Under the pieces are notes generated by a model. The model saw only the letters and a list, made by a program, of their open reading frames with translations. It had not been told where the DNA came from and did no database searches. DNA of 32,636 nucleotides. Origin: Chitinophagales bacterium (GTDB taxonomy: Bacteria > Bacteroidota > Bacteroidia > Chitinophagales > Chitinophagaceae). The stretch lies in NCBI GenBank assembly GCA_017303395.1, contig JAFLBN010000028.1, positions 1 through 32,636 on the forward strand, in the 5' to 3' direction. Below, in pieces: positions 3,001-32,636 of this stretch (position 1 is the stretch's first letter; each line of letters starts with the position of its first letter). The translations under genes and the position numbers were made by a program.

Positions 3001-4330
3001 GGAAAGATAGATTCAACCCAAGAGGCGTTGCGACACCTGTGCCTAATGATACAACAGAACTACTGGTTGCCAGCAATGTCCATGCAGCACTGTTAGTTTC
3101 ACTACCCACATAAGTACCTAATTTATAATATACCTCATAAGTACCTGTTCCTGTTAAGTTGCACTTAAAATCATTCAATACTATATTATTAGATACGAGC
3201 ACATCAAACATCGCTCCTGCATTTCCATTATTAGCATTATAAGGAGTTGAAACTGAATTACCACCAATAAACACTACAGGCTCTGCATAGTAAGTGCCTG
3301 CAGATGAAACAGGATTAATTGTTAGTGTAGTACCAGAACCCAAATAATTGCCAGCAGAAGCTGCATCATACCATTTAATAATACCACCAGAAGAAACTGT
3401 GGCACCAACAGCACCCGAACCACCAACACATGCTACACCGGGTGTAGTACCTGTAATTGTTGGCAATGCAACTGTTGTGAGTGTTGCACTTGCAGATGCA
3501 GACGATGTTCCACATGCATTTGTTGCTGTAGCACGATACAAATAACCATCCATACCTGCCGTAGCACCAGTAATGTTAACCGTTGCTGTAGTAGCATTGC
3601 TGTATACACCACCATTAGAAATATTTGTGAAACCACTGCCTGTATTCACCTGCCATTGGTAACTTGTAGGTGTATTACTTGCCGCTACAGTGAAAGTTGT
3701 ATTACTACCGACACAAACAGTTTTGTTAGTAGGGTCAGTAGATATAGCAGGTACTGCACCTATACTAAGCGTTGCTGCCGTTGATGCAGCAGATGTGCCA
3801 CAAGAATTAGTAGCTGTAGCTCTGTATAGATAGCCTGCCATACCCGCAGTAACACCAGTGATATTCAGAGTAGCAGTAGTAACATTGCTATACACACCAC
3901 CATTAGTAAGGTTTGTAAAACCGGAGCCGTTATCTACCTGCCACTGGTATGATGTTGGCGAACCACTTGCAGCTGCCGTAAAGCTGGTATTACCACCCGC
4001 ACAAGCAGAGGCATTATTAGGATTTGTTGTTATAGACGGTGCACTATTAACTGTAAGGGTAGCGCCTGAAGATGGTGATGATGTACCTGTACCGTTGGTA
4101 GCGGTAGCGCGATACAAATAACCATTCATACCAGCAGTAGCACCAGTAATAGATAGTGTAGCACTTGTAGCACCACTATATACGCCACCATTGCTGATGT
4201 TTGAATAACCACTACCGGTATTTACCTGCCATTGATATGATGTTGGGGTATTGTTTGCGGCAACTGTGAAGCTTGTATTACCACCTGAACAAACTGATGC
4301 ACTTGATGGATTGCTTGTTATAGTTGGGGC
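1..4330 (-). repeat. Thirteen tandem Ig-like repeat units, about 290 bp each
   Basis: The Trp-containing core (QWQ, antisense of tgccattg) recurs near 30, 317, 614, 904, 1193, 1492, 1781, 2067, 2354, 2645, then 3654, 3943 and 4232. Spacing is 286-300 bp, about 96 codons. Units 10 and 11 are separated by roughly 1 kb holding two other domains. Units differ by many substitutions, so this is an old protein-level array, not a recent DNA expansion. Confidence 0.85.
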
Positions 4331-4813
4331 TGCTGCTGTAGCAGTAGCAGCATACGTTATCGTCCATGTAGTACCGATAGAAAAATCTACTGCCACCATA
4401 ATCTGGCTATAGGTACCGGCACTTAACGGGAGTGACAGACCTATATTGCCACTGCTACCACCACCCCAAGTAGGGTTTGCCAAACCGCCCCAGTTGATTT
4501 GACCACCAATGGGGCCACCGCCACCACCCGGACCGATAGCATAAGTAGCTGACGTAAGCTGTAAGCCACTGTTAATTACAAGTGTATGTCTATCCTGCGC
4601 ATCGGAACCCGACGTAACAGTACCACTGACAGTATAAGTACCGGCGGCTGTAATAGTAAGAGTTGTACCATTGCCGGTATTGGGCAAATCTCCGTTGACA
4701 CTTTCATTGTGTAAGCTGGTTTGTGCTTGCGATGACAGTGACAGTAACATTAGAAATGCCATCATCGCATTTCTGAATGCTGTTGGTTTGTTTTTAAGTC
4801 TAAATGTGACCAT
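1..4813 (-). CDS. Giant secreted Ig-like repeat protein (3' end off the left edge)
   Basis: An open frame runs from ATG at 4813 to the left edge, 1604 codons with no stop, so the C-terminus is missing. The N-terminus has a signal peptide (hydrophobic FLMLLSLSSQAQ, cut near residue 25). Next come a Gly-rich region with beta-structure (about residues 30-150), three Ig-like repeats, a WYDAA...YYAEP Ig-like module, a unique beta-rich domain (about residues 520-690) with an EVYYKLGTYVGSE segment, and then at least ten more Ig repeats of about 96 residues. Each repeat has YQWQxNTGSGF, NGGVYxNATTATL and GYxYRC, with a likely Cys pair. It is probably an extracellular adhesin or matrix protein. Domain style and neighbours suggest T9SS export, but the sorting tail would lie outside the window. 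Codon and base use look like the rest of the window. The ORF is certain; the function is inferred. Confidence 0.85.
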   Translation of the reverse strand, partial: MVTFRLKNKPTAFRNAMMAFLMLLSLSSQAQTSLHNESVNGDLPNTGNGTTLTITAAGTYTVSGTVTSGSDAQDRHTLVINSGLQLTSATYAIGPGGGGGPIGGQINWGGLANPTWGGGSSGNIGLSLPLSAGTYSQIMVAVDFSIGTTWTITYAATATAAAPTITSNPSSASVCSGGNTSFTVAANNTPTSYQWQVNTGSGYSNISNGGVYSGATSATLSITGATAGMNGYLYRATATNGTGTSSPSSGATLTVNSAPSITTNPNNASACAGGNTSFTAAASGSPTSYQWQVDNGSGFTNLTNGGVYSNVTTATLNITGVTAGMAGYLYRATATNSCGTSAASTAATLSIGAVPAISTDPTNKTVCVGSNTTFTVAASNTPTSYQWQVNTGSGFTNISNGGVYSNATTATVNITGATAGMDGYLYRATATNACGTSSASASATLTTVALPTITGTTPGVACVGGSGAVGATVSSGGIIKWYDAASAGNYLGSGTTLTINPVSSAGTYYAEPVVFIGGNSVSTPYNANNGNAGAMFDVLVSNNIVLNDFKCNLTGTGTYEVYYKLGTYVGSETNSAAWTLLATSSSVVSLGTGVATPLGLNLSFPLSAGQVYAFYITDKMSTGSVRYTNVGASGVSIGSNSDLTVYSGVGKGYPFAGTNSFRSINCTIDYSTTSCTGLSRSAVALSLYTSPSVSSHPSNSSVSVGANTSFSVTGTATGIAYQWQENTGSGWANITNGGIYSNATTATLNLTAVTLAMNSYQYRCVISGTCTPVANSNPATLTVLSTPPVISTDPVNAAICNGANTSFTTAATNTPTSYTWQVNSGSGYTDISNGGVYSNATTATLNITGATTGMNGYLYRVIATNPSGSSAPSAAATLTVNTPPAIGTSPSNSTICSSTNTSFSVVATGAGLGYQWQVDNGGGYSNISNGGVYSNATAATLNITSATNAMNGYQYRCVVTGTCTPAATSAGATLTVVAAPVVNTQPLNQVVCNNAPNVSFTTAVSNATGYQWFVNTGSGFTAITNNAVYSGATTNTLTITSPSSSMNGYLYKCAASANTPCSTVETNTVTLTVVPLAVINTQPSSTPTCVGSNATFSVTASNANGYQWQENTGSGYVNISNVGVYSGATTSTLTITGATIGMGGYQYRCVVLSNTPCGSVTSSAATLTVNTLPSIVTQPDNSSMTVCALAGTASCSTVATGTGVSFQWQENTGSGWNNLGLNPVITNNGFGGLTFTNPPASMNGYQYRCLVSGTCTPSLTSNVVTLTVNTSPVINTQASGVTVCAGDNPSFTIGASGTALTYQWQVDAGSGFANITNGGVYSNATAATLNITAAPYSLNGYQYRCVVSGTCSPSVTGTPVTLVVNSPAIVTAQPLPQTVCDGGNATFTTTAIGTNLTYQWYANYGSGFVVLTNSSQYSGVTTNTLTVTSANPGINGSVYECRITTGTSCLPTVVATGTASLTVYSLPIIYNAPVASTICDGGNTAFGVTATGTGLTYQWQVNTGSGFANITNGGVYSNATTATLNLTAATAAMTGYSYRCVVSGTCTPSVTSSAATLTVRTLPAIATHPSNVTLCAGATATFSVAATGAGLTYQWQENTGSGFV

Positions 4814-5119
4814 ATATGGGGTTTTAACTTTTTTACTTTACAATAGTATTCTGTTCAATCAAATATTAGTTGATTAAACTAAGCGTACACTAAGAGTATT
4901 TTTTATGCTAAATTGAGTAAACGGATAATCCGTATAAAAATACGATGTGATACCCGTTTTTTCAACATATTCAATTAAATTAACTTGGCATGCTAACACT
5001 TTGATATACAATTGATTCATAGCGTGTAAAAAGTTTAACCAATAGTTATATATTTGATATGATAAAACAAAAAAGGATGGCAATAGCCATCCTTGTAATC
5101 ATAATTTAAGATTTGTTAT
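4814..5119. other. AT-rich intergenic region between two minus-strand genes
   Basis: About 306 bp without a gene. It holds the leader and probable promoter of the giant Ig gene at its left end: a near-consensus -7 box (AATATTTG on the minus strand, 4860-4867, 7 of 8 to TAnnTTTG, 46 bp before the ATG, with no clear -33 box). It holds the terminator of the receptor operon at its right end. I see nothing else in 4870-5060. Confidence 0.5.
5061..5094 (-). terminator. Intrinsic terminator of the receptor operon
   Basis: A perfect 9-bp stem (5073-5081 with 5086-5094, loop aata) is followed on the minus strand by a T-rich tract at 5072-5061. It starts 26 bp after the stop of the last operon gene. 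Confidence 0.8.
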
Positions 5120-6028
5120 TTACTTCACTTCAGCAGCATCGTAGCTAAGTACACTGAAAACACCATATCCATTTTTCACGTTCGTGTGTATGTTTGTCGG
5201 CTCAGAAAAAGGATTATCTCCGTTCTCTGTAGCAAACTGGTATGTCTTTCTGTATTTAAAATAATCTTCTGTAACGTGTTGCAGTGCTGCTATTACCCTA
5301 TATATTACACCACCGTTGTTGTACGGTTCTAAATAAGCACTGTTAATAAACACCCTCAGCTCTTTTGTAGTACCATTAAATAAAGCATCTCTGATGAAAA
5401 TAGCATTTCCGCTAAGGCAGGTATTCTGGTCTATCTGTTCATTCGATACACTTTCAATACTTGCATCTACCGTATTGATACAAGAGCTGTAATACATGGT
5501 TGTATCGCCCGAAGTATTGTCTTTTGTGAAACTCAGTATGTAATAGTCGCCCGGCGTTACAGGGTCTTTAAATGTTATACGTAATTCATCCTGCGGTAAG
5601 CCATCCATATCTAACCTTGCTTTCGGTATGCGTTGGATATTCTCAATCTTTACAAAAGATGGCACTATAGTAGCAGCACTGGCTTCCTGATAGCCTGGGG
5701 CATTTACCTTCACCTCGTACCTTCCACCATCTTCGGCAATGGTCTTAGAGTTGTAGTTATTGAGTGTGGCATCATACTTCATAGTATCTACCACTTTCCC
5801 GCTTTTTAACAAGAGCACTTGTGCATCTCTTATCGAAAGGTCTTGCCCTTTTTTAAATTTCAGGATGCTGATAGACTTACCAACACTTACACGCATGGTA
5901 TCCCCTACTTCAGTATCGCTGTTTACTACCAGTAGCGGGGTGTATTCAGGTACTTTTACAGTTATTTCTTTTTCGCAGGATGCTAATGCCACCGTGGCAA
6001 ACAAAGCTGTTATATAATGACGTTTCAT
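5120..6028 (-). CDS. DUF4249-family outer-membrane lipoprotein (second copy)
   Basis: 302 aa. The signal peptide ends in a lipobox (LASC, Cys18), so the protein should be lipidated. After the Cys comes E-K-E, resembling the Bacteroidota lipoprotein export signal (Lys plus acidic residues next to the Cys) that sends lipoproteins to the cell surface. The remainder looks like the DUF4249 family: an early ...VxVPEYTPLLVVNS strand, DTMRVSVGKS, a beta-sandwich-like middle and a C-terminal DYFKYRKTY and NPFSEPTNIHTNV segment. Such proteins are usually encoded next to a TonB-dependent receptor, as here (23 bp after the receptor stop). By analogy with SusD it may cap or feed that receptor; the substrate is unknown. 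It is the last gene of the operon. Confidence 0.85.
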   Translation of the reverse strand: MKRHYITALFATVALASCEKEITVKVPEYTPLLVVNSDTEVGDTMRVSVGKSISILKFKKGQDLSIRDAQVLLLKSGKVVDTMKYDATLNNYNSKTIAEDGGRYEVKVNAPGYQEASAATIVPSFVKIENIQRIPKARLDMDGLPQDELRITFKDPVTPGDYYILSFTKDNTSGDTTMYYSSCINTVDASIESVSNEQIDQNTCLSGNAIFIRDALFNGTTKELRVFINSAYLEPYNNGGVIYRVIAALQHVTEDYFKYRKTYQFATENGDNPFSEPTNIHTNVKNGYGVFSVLSYDAAEVK

Positions 6029-6051
6029 ATTATATGCTATATATGTGGTGA

Positions 6052-8349
6052 TTAAAATTTGAATTGATAACTGATAGAAGGAATAATTGGGAACAGGCTC
6101 ATTTGTTTGAATACCGCATTACCCTGATTGTTTGTAGAACTGTATATATAGAACGGATTGCGACGGTTGTAAACGTTATAAGCACTTATCACCCATGCGC
6201 GTTCCCAGTTTTTGCGTTGCTTAGAAAACTTGATGCTTACATCGGCACGGTGGTAAGATGGCATACGATAACCATTCCGCTCACCATATACCTGCACATT
6301 ACTACCATCAGGTCCCGTATAGTAACCAACAGGCAGTGTGATGGCATTACCTGTACCATAAATCCATTCAGCACTTACTTCTACATTCTTAGCCAATTCA
6401 TATATCGCGGCTATTTTAAAATCATGCCTTCTATCGTAACGATAAGGGAATTCTTTACCACCATTCAGGTTATCGAACTGACGCTTTGTCCATGATAGTG
6501 TGTAGCCCATCAGACCTGTTACCCTACCCTTCTTTTTCTGAAAGAACAGTTCGCCACCGTAGCTTTTACCCTTCCCTATTTCTACTTTGTCTTCCCAGTT
6601 GCTGCCCGGATTGAAGAAGCTAGCGCCTTCTTTATACTCCAGTACATTATCCATTGTTTTATAATAACCTTCCAAAGACACTTCGATACCTGTAAAGTGT
6701 GTGTATGCAAGCCCTGCAGCACCCTGATAAGACTTCTGCATCGGAACCCTTGCCGTAACAGGCACCCACAAATCTGTTGGCAGGCCTATTGATGAGTTTG
6801 TAAGCAAGTGTATAAACTGATTCATTTGCACAAAAGATGCTTTAGCACTCAGCTTATCGTTTATCAGATATCGAGCTGCAACACGTGGCTGTATGGAATG
6901 GTAAAACTTATCCTGCACCATGAAGCCTGTCCAGTGTACGCCGAGGTTTGCCTTCAGCTTTGATGATATTTTGATATCGTCTTCTATATATGCATCTATC
7001 TCTCCTGCGTTTATATCCTTAGTAGCAATGGTAGTATCTTGTTTGAAGCCTGCAGCTGCGACCCTTGTTTGTTGTGCACCTGGCTTGTAGGTATGATTCA
7101 CATAACCAACGCCTGCTTTCACATAGTGATTGGGATGCGGAATATAGTCGAAATCGTATTTTATCGCTTTGTCATTGATGCCTGAAGAATACTTCAGGTA
7201 AAACTCATCATTAGAGCCAGAGAATGTACTCTTAGTTTGTGTTGATACAATAAACCTGTACTGGCTGTAATATGCCGTAAGATTACCAAAGAGTTTATTG
7301 TTGTATTGGTGATTCCAACGTGCAACGGTTGTAATATTACCCCACTTCAGGTCGGTATTGAAAGATGATGAGAGCGAACTACCATCCTCTTGTTTTTGCT
7401 TTGCATAAAACTTATCGTCGCCCAGATAACCACTGATGTACAAGTGGTCTTTCTTAGTCAGTTTGAAGTTTACTTTACCATTCAGGTCGTAGAAATAATA
7501 TCCGCCTTTGAAGTTGCCCCTAATGAAAGGCTTCGCGATGATATCGTAATAAGTGCGCCTGCCCGAAATCATGAAAGATGACTTGCCTTTTTGTATGGGG
7601 CCTTCCAGGGTAAGCCTTGAAGCTATGAGCCCTATACCGCCTTCACCATGTAGTTTATTCTTGTTACCTTCTTTCATGTTAATATCTAACACAGAAGAAA
7701 GGCGTCCACCATAACGCGCAGGAAACCCTCCCTTTACCAATTCTACACTGCGGATGGCATCTGCATTGAACACGCTGAAGAAACCAAACAGGTGGCTGGC
7801 ATTATATACAGGCACACCATCCAGCAATATCAGGTTCTGATCAGGGCCACCGCCACGTACATAGAAACCAGAAGAGCCTTCATTACCTGCCTGTACACCG
7901 GGAAGTAGTTGTATCGCCTTCAACACATCTACCTCTCCTAGAAAAGCAGGCAACGATTTGATGGTTTGTATTGGCAGGTCGATAGTACTCATTTGCGTAC
8001 GTTCCTGTATTGCATCTTTCTTGCCTGTGATGACTACCTCTTTCATCTCTTTGGCAGATTCCAATTCGATGTTCAGTGTAGTGTTTTGTTTCAGGCTGAT
8101 GTCTTGAGAGAAAGTAGCATAACCGATATAAGAAGCTTTCAGCTTTATATCATCGGCCTGCATGGTAATAGAATAGAAGCCAAAAGCATTGGTAGCCGTA
8201 CCAATATTTTTTTCAGGAATAAAAACCGTGGCTCCTATCAGGCGTTCACCACTTTTCTTTTCCGTTACATACCCGCTGATGGTAACTTGTTGTGCCCATA
8301 CAGCCAGTGGCATCAGGAAAGTAAGTAGCAATAAAATGCGTTGTTTCAT
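6052..8349 (-). CDS. TonB-dependent outer-membrane receptor, no STN domain
   Basis: 765 aa. A signal peptide (cut after AVWAQ, about residue 20) is followed by a carboxypeptidase-regulatory-like beta-sandwich (about 22-95; ISGYVTEKKSGERLIGATV), a plug domain (about 120-235; LPGVQAGNEGSSGFYVRGGG, ILLDGVPVYN, GGFPARYGGRLSSVLDI) and a 22-strand-type barrel ending in a terminal Phe (SYQFKF), the usual outer-membrane insertion signal. It imports an unidentified ligand using TonB energy. Unlike the upstream receptor it lacks an STN signalling domain, so it should transport but not talk to FecR. It sits 50 bp after the first DUF4249 gene and 23 bp before the second, as the second receptor/lipoprotein pair of the operon. 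The plug closely resembles that of the first receptor, suggesting duplication. Confidence 0.92.
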   Translation of the reverse strand: MKQRILLLLTFLMPLAVWAQQVTISGYVTEKKSGERLIGATVFIPEKNIGTATNAFGFYSITMQADDIKLKASYIGYATFSQDISLKQNTTLNIELESAKEMKEVVITGKKDAIQERTQMSTIDLPIQTIKSLPAFLGEVDVLKAIQLLPGVQAGNEGSSGFYVRGGGPDQNLILLDGVPVYNASHLFGFFSVFNADAIRSVELVKGGFPARYGGRLSSVLDINMKEGNKNKLHGEGGIGLIASRLTLEGPIQKGKSSFMISGRRTYYDIIAKPFIRGNFKGGYYFYDLNGKVNFKLTKKDHLYISGYLGDDKFYAKQKQEDGSSLSSSFNTDLKWGNITTVARWNHQYNNKLFGNLTAYYSQYRFIVSTQTKSTFSGSNDEFYLKYSSGINDKAIKYDFDYIPHPNHYVKAGVGYVNHTYKPGAQQTRVAAAGFKQDTTIATKDINAGEIDAYIEDDIKISSKLKANLGVHWTGFMVQDKFYHSIQPRVAARYLINDKLSAKASFVQMNQFIHLLTNSSIGLPTDLWVPVTARVPMQKSYQGAAGLAYTHFTGIEVSLEGYYKTMDNVLEYKEGASFFNPGSNWEDKVEIGKGKSYGGELFFQKKKGRVTGLMGYTLSWTKRQFDNLNGGKEFPYRYDRRHDFKIAAIYELAKNVEVSAEWIYGTGNAITLPVGYYTGPDGSNVQVYGERNGYRMPSYHRADVSIKFSKQRKNWERAWVISAYNVYNRRNPFYIYSSTNNQGNAVFKQMSLFPIIPSISYQFKF

Positions 8350-27036: not shown

Positions 27037-27084
27037 ATAATAAAAGATAAAGCGTCCTTACGGGGACGCTTTATCTTTTATTAT
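27037..27084. terminator. Strong bidirectional terminator (21-bp stem)
   Basis: A perfect 21-bp stem (27037-27057 with 27064-27084) has a 6-nt loop. The GC core gcgtcc/ggacgc is flanked by A/T-rich arms that give a T-run in either direction. It lies between the convergent nadE (10 bp past its stop) and the gene at 27109. Confidence 0.9.
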
Positions 27085-27108: not shown

Positions 27109-27657
27109 TTACAGTTGAGTAGCAGTGTAAACTACATCTACAGTATAAGTACCTGCAGGGTAAGCGAAACCAGGTGTAGCATTGTATTGGATGCTGAATG
27201 TTTGGTTGCCACCGTTATTACAGTTTGTCAACAGGTTTTGTGCAGTTGCACTCAGGTCAGCATAGCTAGATGCGCTGAACGGAGAAGCGATAGCACCACC
27301 GGTTGCGTTTGCAGGAACACGCAGATCAAGAACACCAGCTACAGGCATTACAGGAGCAGGAGTTGTTGTACCTGTATATGAGAAGTTAGCATTGTTAGTT
27401 TTTACTGTTACGCCGAATTTTTTGTTAGAGCGTACTTTCAATTCCTGGTTAGAAGAGCTAACACCGTTTGCATAATCGTTAACAGTGTTGAAAGCCAGGT
27501 TAACAGCAGCACCTGTAGCAGTTCCTGATCCTGTGAAAGTCAGTTCGATTGCGTTGCTCAGGTTCAGGTTAACTGTTTGAGTAGCTGTAGAAGCAACTTG
27601 TGCTTTTGCTGCGAAACCTGTTACTGCCAGTGCGATGATTGCGATTACTTTTTTCAT
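27109..27657 (-). CDS. Small secreted beta-sandwich protein of unknown function
   Basis: 182 aa. The signal peptide is cut after about residue 19 (FAAKAQ). The mature chain is rich in Ala, Thr, Asn, Val and Ser with short beta strands: QTVNLNLSNAIELTF near the N-terminus, AVNLAFNTVNDYANGV, QELKVRSNKKFGVTVKTNN and the end PAGTYTVDVVYTATQ. The layout and last strand resemble fimbrial-adhesin-like or DUF4402-like secreted proteins, but I cannot assign a family surely. There is one Cys and no T9SS tail. It is monocistronic, with a long G-free leader and a strong terminator, which suggests high expression. Confidence 0.8.
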   Translation of the reverse strand: MKKVIAIIALAVTGFAAKAQVASTATQTVNLNLSNAIELTFTGSGTATGAAVNLAFNTVNDYANGVSSSNQELKVRSNKKFGVTVKTNNANFSYTGTTTPAPVMPVAGVLDLRVPANATGGAIASPFSASSYADLSATAQNLLTNCNNGGNQTFSIQYNATPGFAYPAGTYTVDVVYTATQL

Positions 27658-28794: not shown

Positions 28795-28821
28795 AAAATC
28801 CCCGCTACTTAGCGGGGATTT
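28795..28821. terminator. Bidirectional terminator between GNAT and T9SS cargo genes
   Basis: A perfect 10-bp stem aaatccccgc/gcggggattt has a tactta loop (28796-28821). On the minus strand it is followed by TTTTCTTTT. It serves both the plus-strand GNAT gene and the minus-strand gene ending at 28841. The identical hairpin recurs at 32170-32195. Confidence 0.85.
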
Positions 28822-29262
28822 GTATGTTGATTCTGATTTCTTATCTCACAAGTGTCACATCACCCTTGTAGGTTTCTACAAACCCGTCAGGATATGCTAC
28901 TCGTATCAGGTACTGATAGTTACCTATCTCCTGTGGTACACCTTTCCATGTGCCATCCCAACCTTTGCGGCCGTCTGTACCATTGTACACTTCCTGACCC
29001 CAACGGTTGAACACCCTGAACTCTACATAACGTTGTACTGTCATGTTGCTAACACGGAACACATCATTCTTACCATCTGCATTCGGACTGAAGGCTGTTG
29101 GAACAATCAGGTTGGAACGATAATCTACACCAACGCGAACTGTATCAAATGAACGACAACCATTGCTTGCTATACCCGCTACTACATACATGGTAGATTC
29201 TGTAGGTGTGGCTATCGGGTAAGAAATGTTCGGATTGTTCAGCGATGCTACAGGGCTCCAGT
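28796..29262. repeat. Direct repeat copy A: CTD and terminator block
   Basis: 467 bp aligned without gaps to 32170-32636 (offset 3374), with nine substitutions, about 98% identity. It covers the terminator hairpin, 3' untranslated sequence and the last 140 codons of the CHU_C-type gene. Identity stops at the outer edge of the hairpin; on the other side copy B runs off the window. Confidence 0.95.
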
Positions 29263-32065
29263 TATACAACCTTGCACCATTTACCATCAACTGAAGGCTT
29301 TGTCCTGCTTTCACCATTGTATCCGGTGTCAGGATTTTTACTACAGGCAATGGTTTTACTGTTATGTATGCATCTATTGTATCAAAACAGAATACTTCGT
29401 CACCTACAGCTATTTTGTAGTGTGTTGTTTTCTTTGGTTTTGCTACCGGACTAGCACACAAATCGCAGCTCAGAGACTGATGTGCAGATTTGTACTGGCC
29501 ATTTTCATACTCATACCATTTGTAGTATGTACCATTGCGAATTTCAAGCGGTGCTGTTTCTCCAAAACATATGGCTGTGTCTTTTGGCAATGCGTAGAAA
29601 TCGTGTTGTGGTACAAAGATATCCAGCGTATCTCTTTCATAACAACCACTAGTACCTATCGTTTCAACGGAATACCTTGTAGATTTATTTACGTACGCCA
29701 ATGGTTGTTTAACGCTTGAATCTGATAGGTATTCACCAGGGAACCATTTGAATTCAAATGGTAATGCAGGTGCATCATCAAACAGCATTTTCAATACAGG
29801 ACGTCCTTTATACTCTTTAATGTTCGGACTGGTATTAACGCCACATACAGTCGTTGTTAATGCATCAGGCGCTTTCAGCTCGAGCATTGATACATACGTA
29901 GTTGGCATATACCTAACAAGTGGTGGTTGGTTAGTACCTGTAGTACTTGAACATCCACCAAGTATATCATTATCACTATAACAAATTTCAATCACCAGGT
30001 TTTTAGTAGAATCCAAATCGAACGGAGTGTCCAGCTTGAATTTCTGTTCTCCATTAGGGAAGAATGTAGGACCCGTAGCAGTATAAACCGGTATCAGCCC
30101 TGTTTCGAAACCTAATGTCGGGTTTAACTCTGTTTTGTTAGTACACTTTACAGATATTCTGAAGTTTCTGTATTCGTATGTATTAGGCGAAGTAGATTTT
30201 GTCGTTTCAAATGACAAGCCTCTTAATACCAATGAACGCATACCAAACTCTCTCAATTCATCTTTTTTGATGAGATATTGTTGTTTAGTACTATGTGCAT
30301 TATTATGCAGTAATGGAGATATAGTACCTACAGTATCGAAAGAGAAACCATAACCGAATATAGATGACCCATATACATAAGCTGAATCCAGTATACCTTC
30401 AGGGATAATAGATGGTCCACATGGCAAGTTATTTCTAGGACCTTTACCTTTTAAATCAACATCCAGCTGTAAATAATCAGGCCTACACATAACAAAGTTA
30501 TCTGTGTGCGGGAAGATATCAATAGCATTTGTTGTGTCTTCAAATATGGTAACTGTATCCTTCAATCGACAGTTACCTACCAATTCGGGAGCAGTTACGA
30601 TATAACTAGTTGTAGTTTTAGGACTAGCAATAGGATTGTGTATAGTGCTTGAAGACAAATCCTTTGCAGGACCACCATTAATATCTGTCCATACAAGTGA
30701 ATTCAAATTATCATATCCCCTCACAAATAATTGTTGTGGTAGAGGTGACAACTTACATATAGGCCTGTCTGGTCCAACATCAATACCAGCTACTACTTTT
30801 ATTTTAACTACAACAAAGTTCTTCTGTACTATAATTGTACCGGTACTGTTACATGTAGAATCTTTAGACACAAATGTCATTGAATGCTCTCCTATATCTC
30901 CTGCAGTTGGTATCCATGAAAAAGTACCGACAGGAGAAGATGTACCTTGTCCTGCTACAGTGTATGTAGCACCAGGTATAATATTTAACACGTCTAAATA
31001 AACATTACTAAGTGCATTCAGAGATTTACCGTTAATAGTAAATGTCAGATTATTACCTGGACATGTGATAACTCTTTTCTGCGATGCCTGTAGTGTACCA
31101 CCTGTAATAGTAAGTGGTGTGGTATCGATAGTTGGCGGTGGATATGAACAGTTAAGAATATTTACCTCACAAGTCCTTCTGATATAACCAGTCAGGACTT
31201 TAGTTTTGGGATCATACTCATCACATTGAAAATCGAATGTGTACCTGCCAGCATTTTGTGGAGTAAAATATGCAGCACCAGTCATTGTATCCATCCTGTA
31301 CGGATTAGAAGATGCTGACCCCATAGGATCGGCCAATGAATAACCCGGATTGAATGCCAACCAAGTAGGGGCAGCTATTGGCGACATGTGTGTATAGTGG
31401 AAAATATTGTATGTTCTGAGAGAATCGCCGTTTACATCTGAAGGTCCATTCAAAAATACGCTTGCATTGCCATTGCAGATATATGGCAGCGGAGTTACAT
31501 TGAAACGGGGTGTACTGTTATTATACTTAACTACGTTATTCAACATAGTTTCCAGATAGAAAGGCTCGTAAGACGGTACGTTTATCAAATTGTTTGATGT
31601 ACAGCAGCTCCAGAAATAAAACGTCCAGTCTGGTTGAGGATATGGTAATGTTACAGTACCCATTACCCTTACCCTATCGAAACCAATAGGAGCTGTAACA
31701 CTATTAACATAGCATGAGTTTTGGTTATGGTAAACCTCACATAGCTGATCCAATGTATCCTGAGATACAAAATTACAAACAACATTACCAGTAGCACCTG
31801 GCAAGCCAGCGGCGGCGGCAGTAGCACTACGATACTGAATATTTACAGTAGTAGCCAACGTAGCCGCGTTAACAGGGTTTCTATCGCAAGCTTTGTACTG
31901 ATCAAAGTACACTTCGTACTTATACTCGGTAGTACCCGTGCAACCATCAAGACCCGCACCTACATAAACCACGTACAAATCGCCCGCGGCAAAGTGATCG
32001 GCCTTAGCTTTTCCGGCAAATAATAACAAAAACAGTAAGAGTATTCTTACGTAACCGTTTCTCAT
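28841..32065 (-). CDS. Large secreted protein with gliding-associated (CHU_C) C-terminal domain
   Basis: 1074 aa from ATG 32065 (MRNGYVRILLLFLLLFAGKA, a good signal peptide). The frame opens 14 codons earlier at 32107, but a promoter-like TTTG-N20-TATATTTA lies there, so the inner start is chosen. The N-terminal ~300 residues (DHFAAGDLYVVYVG, YEVYFDQYKACDRNP, Cys-rich later) form the module common in such cargo. The middle has Ig/PKD-like beta domains with many Cys. The last ~90 residues (LIVPTAFSPNADGKNDVFRV, VEFRVFNRWGQEVYNG, GWDGTWKG, YQYLIRVAYPDG) form the gliding-motility-associated C-terminal domain, a type B T9SS signal. It is probably a surface adhesin; the exact role is unknown. Confidence 0.93.
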   Translation of the reverse strand: MRNGYVRILLLFLLLFAGKAKADHFAAGDLYVVYVGAGLDGCTGTTEYKYEVYFDQYKACDRNPVNAATLATTVNIQYRSATAAAAGLPGATGNVVCNFVSQDTLDQLCEVYHNQNSCYVNSVTAPIGFDRVRVMGTVTLPYPQPDWTFYFWSCCTSNNLINVPSYEPFYLETMLNNVVKYNNSTPRFNVTPLPYICNGNASVFLNGPSDVNGDSLRTYNIFHYTHMSPIAAPTWLAFNPGYSLADPMGSASSNPYRMDTMTGAAYFTPQNAGRYTFDFQCDEYDPKTKVLTGYIRRTCEVNILNCSYPPPTIDTTPLTITGGTLQASQKRVITCPGNNLTFTINGKSLNALSNVYLDVLNIIPGATYTVAGQGTSSPVGTFSWIPTAGDIGEHSMTFVSKDSTCNSTGTIIVQKNFVVVKIKVVAGIDVGPDRPICKLSPLPQQLFVRGYDNLNSLVWTDINGGPAKDLSSSTIHNPIASPKTTTSYIVTAPELVGNCRLKDTVTIFEDTTNAIDIFPHTDNFVMCRPDYLQLDVDLKGKGPRNNLPCGPSIIPEGILDSAYVYGSSIFGYGFSFDTVGTISPLLHNNAHSTKQQYLIKKDELREFGMRSLVLRGLSFETTKSTSPNTYEYRNFRISVKCTNKTELNPTLGFETGLIPVYTATGPTFFPNGEQKFKLDTPFDLDSTKNLVIEICYSDNDILGGCSSTTGTNQPPLVRYMPTTYVSMLELKAPDALTTTVCGVNTSPNIKEYKGRPVLKMLFDDAPALPFEFKWFPGEYLSDSSVKQPLAYVNKSTRYSVETIGTSGCYERDTLDIFVPQHDFYALPKDTAICFGETAPLEIRNGTYYKWYEYENGQYKSAHQSLSCDLCASPVAKPKKTTHYKIAVGDEVFCFDTIDAYITVKPLPVVKILTPDTMVKAGQSLQLMVNGARLYNWSPVASLNNPNISYPIATPTESTMYVVAGIASNGCRSFDTVRVGVDYRSNLIVPTAFSPNADGKNDVFRVSNMTVQRYVEFRVFNRWGQEVYNGTDGRKGWDGTWKGVPQEIGNYQYLIRVAYPDGFVETYKGDVTLVR

Positions 32066-32087
32066 GCTTACAGATTTTATCGCTTGA

Positions 32088-32119
32088 TAAATATATGACA
32101 TTAACACTTTATTGTCAAA
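32088..32119 (-). promoter_or_regulatory. Candidate promoter of the large CHU_C gene
   Basis: On the minus strand TTTG (32116-32119), a 20-bp spacer and TATATTTA (32088-32095, 7 of 8). Transcription would begin about 18 bp before ATG 32065. Confidence 0.45.
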
Positions 32120-32169
32120 TCTTGTTTAATAGACATCAGCAATCTGAGAAGTGTTGGGTATTCAAACAA

Positions 32170-32195
32170 AAATCCCCGCTACTTAGCGGGGATTT
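32170..32195 (-). terminator. Terminator of the right-edge CHU_C gene
   Basis: The same 10-bp aaatccccgc/gcggggattt stem and tactta loop as at 28796, followed on the minus strand by TTTTTGTTTG. It lies 19 bp past the stop of the partial gene. Confidence 0.85.
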
Positions 32196-32214
32196 GTATG
32201 TTGATTCTGATTTC

Positions 32215-32636
32215 TTATCTCACAAGTGTCACATCACCTTTGTAGGTTTCTACAAACCCGTCAGGATATGCTACTCGTATCAGGTACTGATAGTTACCTA
32301 TCTCCTGTGGTACGCCTTTCCATGTACCATCCCAGCCTTTGCGGCCGTCTGTACCATTGTACACTTCCTGACCCCAACGATTGAACACGCGGAACTCTAC
32401 ATAACGTTGTACTGTCATGTTGCTAACACGGAACACATCATTCTTACCATCTGCATTTGGACTGAAGGCTGTTGGAACAATCAGGTTGGAACGATAATCT
32501 ACACCAACACGAACTGTATCAAATGAACGACAACCATTGCTTGCTATACCCGCTACTACATACATGGTAGATTCTGTAGGTGTGGCTATCGGGTAAGAAA
32601 TGTTCGGATTGTTCAGCGATGCTACAGGGCTCCAGT
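32215..32636 (-). CDS. 3' end of a second CHU_C-type T9SS cargo gene (5' end off the right edge)
   Basis: Partial: 140 codons are visible, open to the window end. The frame passes through the internal Met at 32565 without interruption (WSPVASLNNPNISYPIATPT precedes it), so this is the tail of a longer gene, not a small one. The product is residue-for-residue identical to the last 140 residues of the protein at 28841-32065: part of an Ig-like module and the full gliding-associated C-terminal domain (PTAFSPNADGKNDVFRVSN, FNRWGQEVYNGTDG). It is therefore another T9SS-exported protein, probably a tandem paralogue. Its N-terminal part cannot be judged here. Confidence 0.92.
   Translation of the reverse strand, partial: WSPVASLNNPNISYPIATPTESTMYVVAGIASNGCRSFDTVRVGVDYRSNLIVPTAFSPNADGKNDVFRVSNMTVQRYVEFRVFNRWGQEVYNGTDGRKGWDGTWKGVPQEIGNYQYLIRVAYPDGFVETYKGDVTLVR

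Follow-up and report, generated by a model that had tools for sequence, protein, structure and literature searches.

Probable concerted evolution of the sorting tail, with separate histories of the heads, in a family of type IX secretion surface-protein genes

At the right end of a 32,636-base stretch of DNA from a Chitinophagales bacterium (the window, which is the entire contig C21 of a 3.76-Mb genome in 44 contigs, labelled G000) lie gene A and the truncated 3' end of a second gene, B, members of a family of type B surface proteins of the type IX secretion system (T9SS) having about 1,070 amino acids (aa). Comparison within and between genomes makes it very probable, from sequence, that the sorting tail of these genes is under concerted evolution by intragenomic gene conversion, while the diverged heads have separate histories. 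Homogenised tails, diverged heads, conserved loci and conflict between trees are observed; homologous recombination, with a role for RecA, would be the mechanism. The elements concerned are:

28841..32065, minus strand: gene A, a 1,074-aa T9SS type B surface protein, with its ATG start at 32065
29615..32065, minus strand: diverged head of A, which groups with the heads of G004_a, G006_a and G011_a in related genomes
28844..29614, minus strand: the 257-codon homogenised tail of A, running from VPQHDFYALP to the C-terminus and near-identical to those of B and of a third gene, C
28844..29104, minus strand: T9SS type B sorting domain (TIGR04131 / CHU_C) of A
28796..28821, minus strand: intrinsic terminator hairpin 3' of A, part of the A/B repeat (terminator scan and folding)
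32215..32636, minus strand: 3' end of gene B, 139 tail codons plus stop, cut by the contig end
32218..32478, minus strand: T9SS type B sorting domain of B
32170..32195, minus strand: identical terminator hairpin 3' of B (terminator scan)
32129..32157, minus strand: extracytoplasmic function (ECF)-type promoter-like element, CCAAC-N18-GTCTAT, upstream of A

The A/B repeat and its copies in the genome

A sequence-only reading of the window had claimed that the two genes share a block of at least 467 bp, 98% identical, ending at a hairpin and differing by nine silent substitutions, and this was borne out: 28796-29262 and 32170-32636 are colinear over 467 bp up to the window end, with nine substitutions in eight codons, all silent (AGG versus CGC for one Arg among them). 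The sharp end of identity that it had placed just outside the hairpin stem was also found, with 49 bases identical from the stop codon on and identity ceasing one base beyond the hairpin, and the gene between the repeats is complete as proposed, the frame of A being open from 32065 (ATG), or from a possible GTG start at 32107, to the stop at 28841-28843. The right edge of the window is an assembly break inside the second repeat copy, in gene B; the rightward extent of identity, visible only to that edge, exceeds the 467 bp and, judged with gene C, reaches about 29614.

Against TIGR04131 (curated cut-off 35), A scores 52.7 bits and the B fragment 56.8, which marks both as predicted type B T9SS cargo. 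The N-terminus of A is hydrophobic as read by eye, and its predicted structure, from an alignment of six sequences, had a mean predicted local distance difference test score (pLDDT) of 46 and a predicted template modelling score (pTM) of 0.35, too poor for a fold search. The hairpin, with a folding energy of -19.4 kcal/mol (z -5.7), scored as a minus-strand terminator at both sites, in a window having three terminator-like sites against 2.2 expected from shuffles. A genome search for further copies of hairpin and C-terminal domain (CTD) block, as advised by the sequence-only reading, found them for the block but not for the hairpin: across the 3.76-Mb assembly no hairpin with up to three mismatches occurs beyond the two window sites, and DNA search gave five places, namely the two in the window, C12:235803-236230 (the tail of gene C, 96% over 428 bp), C23 (the tail of gene D, 71%) and C19 (a 39-base match). 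With every candidate in G000, G004 and G006 scored, no other tail-type match was found, the next best (38-40%) being other type B genes.

Gene B is known as two contig-split pieces. A family head on contig C22 runs through tail residues 1-97 up to the contig end, and C21 has tail residues 119-257, which by tail alignment leaves a gap of 21 codons if the two contigs adjoin; C22 bears gene clusters c3, c4 and c1, which precede a tandem pair of family genes in G004 and G011, and C21 bears clusters c13 and c6, which come after that pair. Because of this common cluster order, the head of B is most likely that at the end of C22 (G000:C22:1-2736).

Silent-site divergence of heads and tails

Genes A, B and C have in common a tail of about 257 codons at 96-98% DNA identity, while their heads are 47-56% identical in protein and near saturation at silent sites. 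Heads of A and C are 35-72% identical per 40-column block until column 840, and their tails, beginning near the VPQHDFYALP motif, reach an identity of 99% in protein and 97.1% in DNA. Synonymous differences, computed by the Nei-Gojobori method for heads and tails as proportions (pS) and distances (dS), gave a head pS of 0.74 and a tail dS of 0.13 for A/C, and 0.69 and 0.16 for A/B (over the 97 tail codons on C22). In G004, a single-contig genome, four of the five paralogs (a, b, c and d, spread over three loci) show a tail dS of 0.03-0.13 and a head pS of 0.73-0.79; tail dS was 0.09 in G006, 0.15 in G011 and 0.23 for a and b of G003. Homogenised within-genome pairs therefore have a tail dS of 0.03-0.23 with heads at or near saturation. 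The longest runs of identical codons, 62 in A/C and 42 in A/B, compare with at most 14 and 11 in 2000 shuffles; in six homogenised pairs such runs (42-221) exceeded all 2000 shuffles, and in four control pairs (A/D and three between-species ortholog pairs) they stayed within their shuffles.

A recent duplication followed by fast divergence of the heads under positive selection would explain the tandem arrangement and near-identical 3' ends, but near-identity along the whole unit, by which the sequence-only reading would have recognised a plain duplication, is excluded for A and B (heads 47% identical in protein, pS 0.69, with C22 taken as the head of B). Head pS is 0.69-0.79 within genomes, the heads of A, B and D have nearer relatives in other species than within G000, and, since a recent duplication cannot saturate silent sites, this highly improbable explanation is refuted. 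Purifying selection, including selection on codon choice, might instead hold the tail constant without recombination, and tail protein is indeed more conserved than head even in the unconverted pair A/D. Ortholog tails between species, however, differ at 63-77% of synonymous sites (pS 0.63-0.77) in seven of the eight pairs computed, with a head-tail contrast nowhere of the size seen within genomes, and the eighth, the close pair G010/G011, has a pS of 0.34 in the head and 0.22 in the tail; silent sites are thus free to change, and selection of this kind has next to no probability as the sole cause. Much the same slight chance attaches to an assembly collapse that made tails look alike: in the drafts, contig ends cut off 15 head-bearing family open reading frames (ORFs), 12 of these within the tail, but the pattern recurs in single-contig G004 and in two-contig G006, and copies carry distinct silent substitutions. 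As G004 has homogenised tails in one contig, the pattern is no draft artefact. Whole-length duplication, codon-level selection and assembly artefact were accordingly rejected for the phenomenon as a whole, on the saturated heads, the diverged ortholog tails and G004 with G006, respectively.

Loci, tail borders and trees

The search for relatives covered 39 genomes including G000, 14 of them of the same genus, and family members were found in at least 13 of the 14 (none for G008 among the matches listed). For identity comparison, 34 family sequences were chosen by hand; set aside were the two-frame gene G001:C108, the tail piece G001:C158, G003:C80, the 47-aa piece G003:C74, pieces of G009:C2 and G009:C20, and G014:C8, and the sole comparison for two pieces of G002 was between the pair. 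The family gene on G001:C108 (reverse strand 3251-6546) consists of two overlapping ORFs in different frames, of 447 and 686 aa, explained by either a frameshift or an error of assembly. Two or more tails or tail pieces could be compared in eight genomes, and six of these (G000, G003, G004, G006, G011 and G014) have a pair of at least 94% DNA identity, that of G014 being pieces only, with heads not comparable; tails of G001 and G013 reach 81-90%.

Gene names at the loci were read from the sequences alone, without family search. At locus 1, peptidase, ABC and oxidoreductase genes are followed by a family gene and then by genes for proteins of 990 aa and often a protease; at locus 2, purB, LysM, glycosyltransferase and 990-aa genes precede one or two family genes, often with GNAT, SRPBCC, small secreted-protein and NAD synthetase genes downstream. 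G000_D, G004_d and G004_e lie in a third setting, behind a kelch-type gene. The A-type head clade (Shimodaira-Hasegawa-like approximate likelihood-ratio support, SH-aLRT, 100) sits at locus 2, second position, in G011 and, probably, in G000, but at locus 1 in G004 and G006, which favours a reassortment of heads. On a head tree of 31 sequences, locus labels change 14 times against a shuffled mean of 17.5 (two of 200 shuffles as low); as heads track locus beyond chance and at saturated silent divergence, relocation of heads appears slow. Two observations concern the locus-2 neighbours themselves. The small secreted-protein gene is matched in part, at about 64-94% DNA identity, in many other places of G010 and G011 and belongs to a repeated family, contig C36 of G010 ending in such a gene and a likely relative lying at window 27109-27657; and just after the 560-aa NAD synthetase-like gene of the window is a perfect 21-bp inverted repeat with a 6-base loop (27037-27084), perhaps a terminator.

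Head and tail trees were built from the 22 genes having both parts, 12 head-only or tail-only pieces being left out. The tail DNA tree needs eight genome-label changes, the minimum possible for the label set and a value reached by none of 200 shuffles; counted alone, G013 needs two and so does G000, on account of D. The tail protein tree needs nine, and the head tree needs 14 against a shuffled mean of 15.6 (21 of 200 as low), the genes of G004 needing five. Approximately unbiased (AU) tests of three clades, on quick trees and with groups named after seeing the trees, rejected a G004 clade (2.8e-49) and an A+C clade (1.3e-5) for the heads and an A-ortholog clade (5.5e-5) for the tails. Paralog 3' segments are closer within a genome than to orthologs elsewhere, with the exception of D and partly of G004_e, G001 and G013, and the remaining segments diverge independently and follow their orthologs, save for some within-genome head pairs.

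At the 3' border, 21 of 23 within-genome pairs have only 2-11 bases in common, counted from the stop codon onward. The two exceptions are A and B, with the 49 bases given above, and the a and c genes of G004, which occupy different loci and have 75 identical bases there, in each case with the terminator hairpin included, and it thus appears from the sequences that copying at times takes the terminator along and stops just past it, stopping elsewhere near the stop codon, where homology ends. At the other border, identity in many pairs rises near ORF residue 838, which is also the most conserved window in unconverted A/D; the rise comes earlier, at about 780-818, in G010, G011 b/c, G003, G005 and partly G006, and two partial genes of G002 already reach 92-98% identity in several windows starting at alignment column 380, well within the head, the intervening windows being at 77-80%. 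This varying onset ruled out a fixed module border and led to the border being taken as the limit of homology able to recombine rather than as the end of a designed cassette.

The sequence-only reading had left open gene conversion or a cassette-like recombination, and of these the first is favoured: tails are alike, heads different, and recombination is the best cause in view of tail dS and the trees. A cassette system, with the tail as docking repeat for the loss, gain or swapping of heads so that the surface protein varies within a population, is unlikely, although tandem copies do repeat tail and terminator and head types occur at different loci in different species. Incomplete donor copies, the mark of an antigenic-variation cassette, were not found, tail-type matches lying in full-length frames in all five G004 cases and in the two of G006; of the G000 genes, A, C and D are full-length and B is the two contig-end pieces. 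Slow relocation, with heads following locus at saturated silent sites, also speaks against it. Deletion of 28841-32065 by crossing over, which the sequence-only reading had suggested as a route to surface variation, is a hypothetical event, and the one junction of such a kind that was seen has points on both sides. G010 and G011 have 8.9 kb in common at 93%, up to and including the stop codon of one family gene, and diverge immediately beyond (G011:C140 versus G010:C39), G011 continuing with a second family gene and the locus-2 flank and G010 with 990-aa family genes and the locus-1 flank; this may be a tail-to-tail crossover, but a mis-join at the repeat would be equally easy, as both are drafts, each with another family gene cut in its tail. 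In G006 other genes come after the locus-2 upstream genes and a family gene, and the NAD synthetase lies some 115 kb off, which is compatible with ordinary rearrangement.

Several findings weigh against concerted evolution of the tail, or limit its reach. Recombination is deduced from sequence patterns. The D tail is unconverted (A/D pS 0.77 in the head and 0.75 in the tail), and homogenisation is only partial for G004_e (tail dS 0.54-0.56 in the two pairs computed), G013 (b/c 0.55, a/b 1.51) and G001 (0.64). A long-branch warning attaches to the tail DNA tree for G001/G013 and G003, the genes of G000, G001, G011 and G013 are not single groups in the tail protein tree, and some heads pair within their genome (G003 a/b, G013 b/c, G005 a/b). 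Three paralogs in Taibaiella soli have a small tail excess (DNA identity rising from 79 to 84%, 69 to 72% and 69 to 73%), and the adjoining 990-aa type B family, tandem in places, has no near-identity in any of 11 within-genome pairs (63.5-81.9% DNA identity in the last 255 columns versus 56.8-77.9% before). It follows from these last two cases that tandem position or a type B domain is insufficient for strong tail homogenisation.

Concerted evolution of the tail nevertheless remains the preferred explanation and could proceed as follows. The family occupies few chromosomal loci, two of them conserved over much of the genus, sometimes as tandem pairs, and a 3' module of about 257 codons, made up of an upstream stretch, the type B sorting domain and sometimes the terminator, would evolve in concert in many genomes. 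Homologous recombination (gene conversion, perhaps with an occasional crossover) would copy this module between paralogs, distant loci included, while heads, mostly diverged beyond recombining homology, would keep separate histories with occasional relocation between loci. The tail would have stayed alike enough to recombine after head divergence because it is conserved even without conversion (A/D 75% in the tail versus 46% in the head, in protein), and recombination would in turn maintain the likeness, so that the process feeds itself.

A possible sorting address, and comparison with known systems

The tail may owe its conservation to being the entire signal for secretion and targeting, which a common PorP/SprF-type shuttle would read. 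A more far-reaching proposal, tentative and rather doubtful, is that the tail serves as a genome-specific sorting address kept common by recombination and fitting one unlinked PorP/SprF shuttle behind the same ECF-type promoter element, with the heads as interchangeable passengers that relocate by tail-to-tail recombination. G000 has 23 type B domains above the cut-off and seven PorP/SprF-like genes (one borderline), four of which adjoin a type B gene and none of which is near A, B, C or D; an unlinked one, C44:45972, stands behind the same promoter-like element as A. Exact matches to CCAAC-N18-GTCTAT number seven in G000 (window 32129-32157, C12:236299, C12:169172, C44:45638, C6:30331, C12:365764 and C1:28765), and the genes after them, each taken as the longest frame within 350 bases, are three type B cargo, one Por_Secre_tail cargo, one unlinked PorP/SprF gene and two ECF sigma factors. 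The same kinds of gene, judged by eye, follow 7 of the 11 matches inspected in G004, 6 of the 11 in G006 and 2 of the 8 in G013, and matches compare with a reversed-pattern control as 7 to 6 in G000, 12 to 2 in G004, 12 to 7 in G006 and 8 to 2 in G013. The element looks like the mark of a putative ECF regulon, autoregulated and serving T9SS cargo. In Porphyromonas gingivalis, T9SS genes are described as under PorXY-SigP control (PMC8265659), with no promoter motif in the accessible part of that paper; type B proteins of P. gingivalis are, in the portion available of PMC9143113, held by PorP-like proteins.

BabA/B-type outer-membrane proteins of Helicobacter pylori are unrelated to the present family and take another secretion route. 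Their genes offer a parallel in that 3' segments of babA/babB and homA/homB, at several loci, are alike within a strain while other segments are not, which is ascribed to intragenomic gene conversion in the parts available of PMC3960876 and PMC2795765 (and, as cited there, by Pride and Blaser 2002); chimeric genes with changed binding are also reported. Differences from H. pylori are that up to five paralogs are involved here, that the comparison is at species level with one genome per species, and that the homogenised part covers the T9SS sorting signal. Gingipains and hagA of P. gingivalis resemble the present genes as T9SS surface proteins with repeats, identical both inside a gene and from gene to gene, at which short-read assemblies break, and domain rearrangement has been proposed for them; the repeated units there are adhesin domains, and the available portion of that account (PMC5266723) describes no concerted evolution of tail versus head. 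In Flavobacterium johnsoniae, according to the main text of PMC12618676, type B signals of 150-235 aa, longer than the conserved domain and close to the tail of about 257 aa described here, are read by specific PorP/SprF shuttles, and three orphan substrates with a type B CTD and no adjacent porP/sprF gene share one orphan shuttle, Fjoh_1677; unlike the present tails, their CTDs are >44% identical, not near-identical, and the words paralog, evolution and recombination do not occur in that text.

Within the open-access literature searched, which leaves most subscription papers outside, no report of gene conversion or concerted evolution in T9SS cargo was found. The present family would extend 3'-end concerted evolution of surface-protein genes to such cargo, with single-contig G004 as the clean case, and a homogenised block about as long as the F. 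johnsoniae type B signal offers a natural test of co-evolution of cargo tail and shuttle; in practical terms, it is precisely at these genes that draft assemblies of such bacteria are interrupted and may be wrongly joined. In summary, the present tails are best read, by analogy, as belonging with the babA/babB-type concerted evolution of 3' ends in H. pylori, here compared between species.

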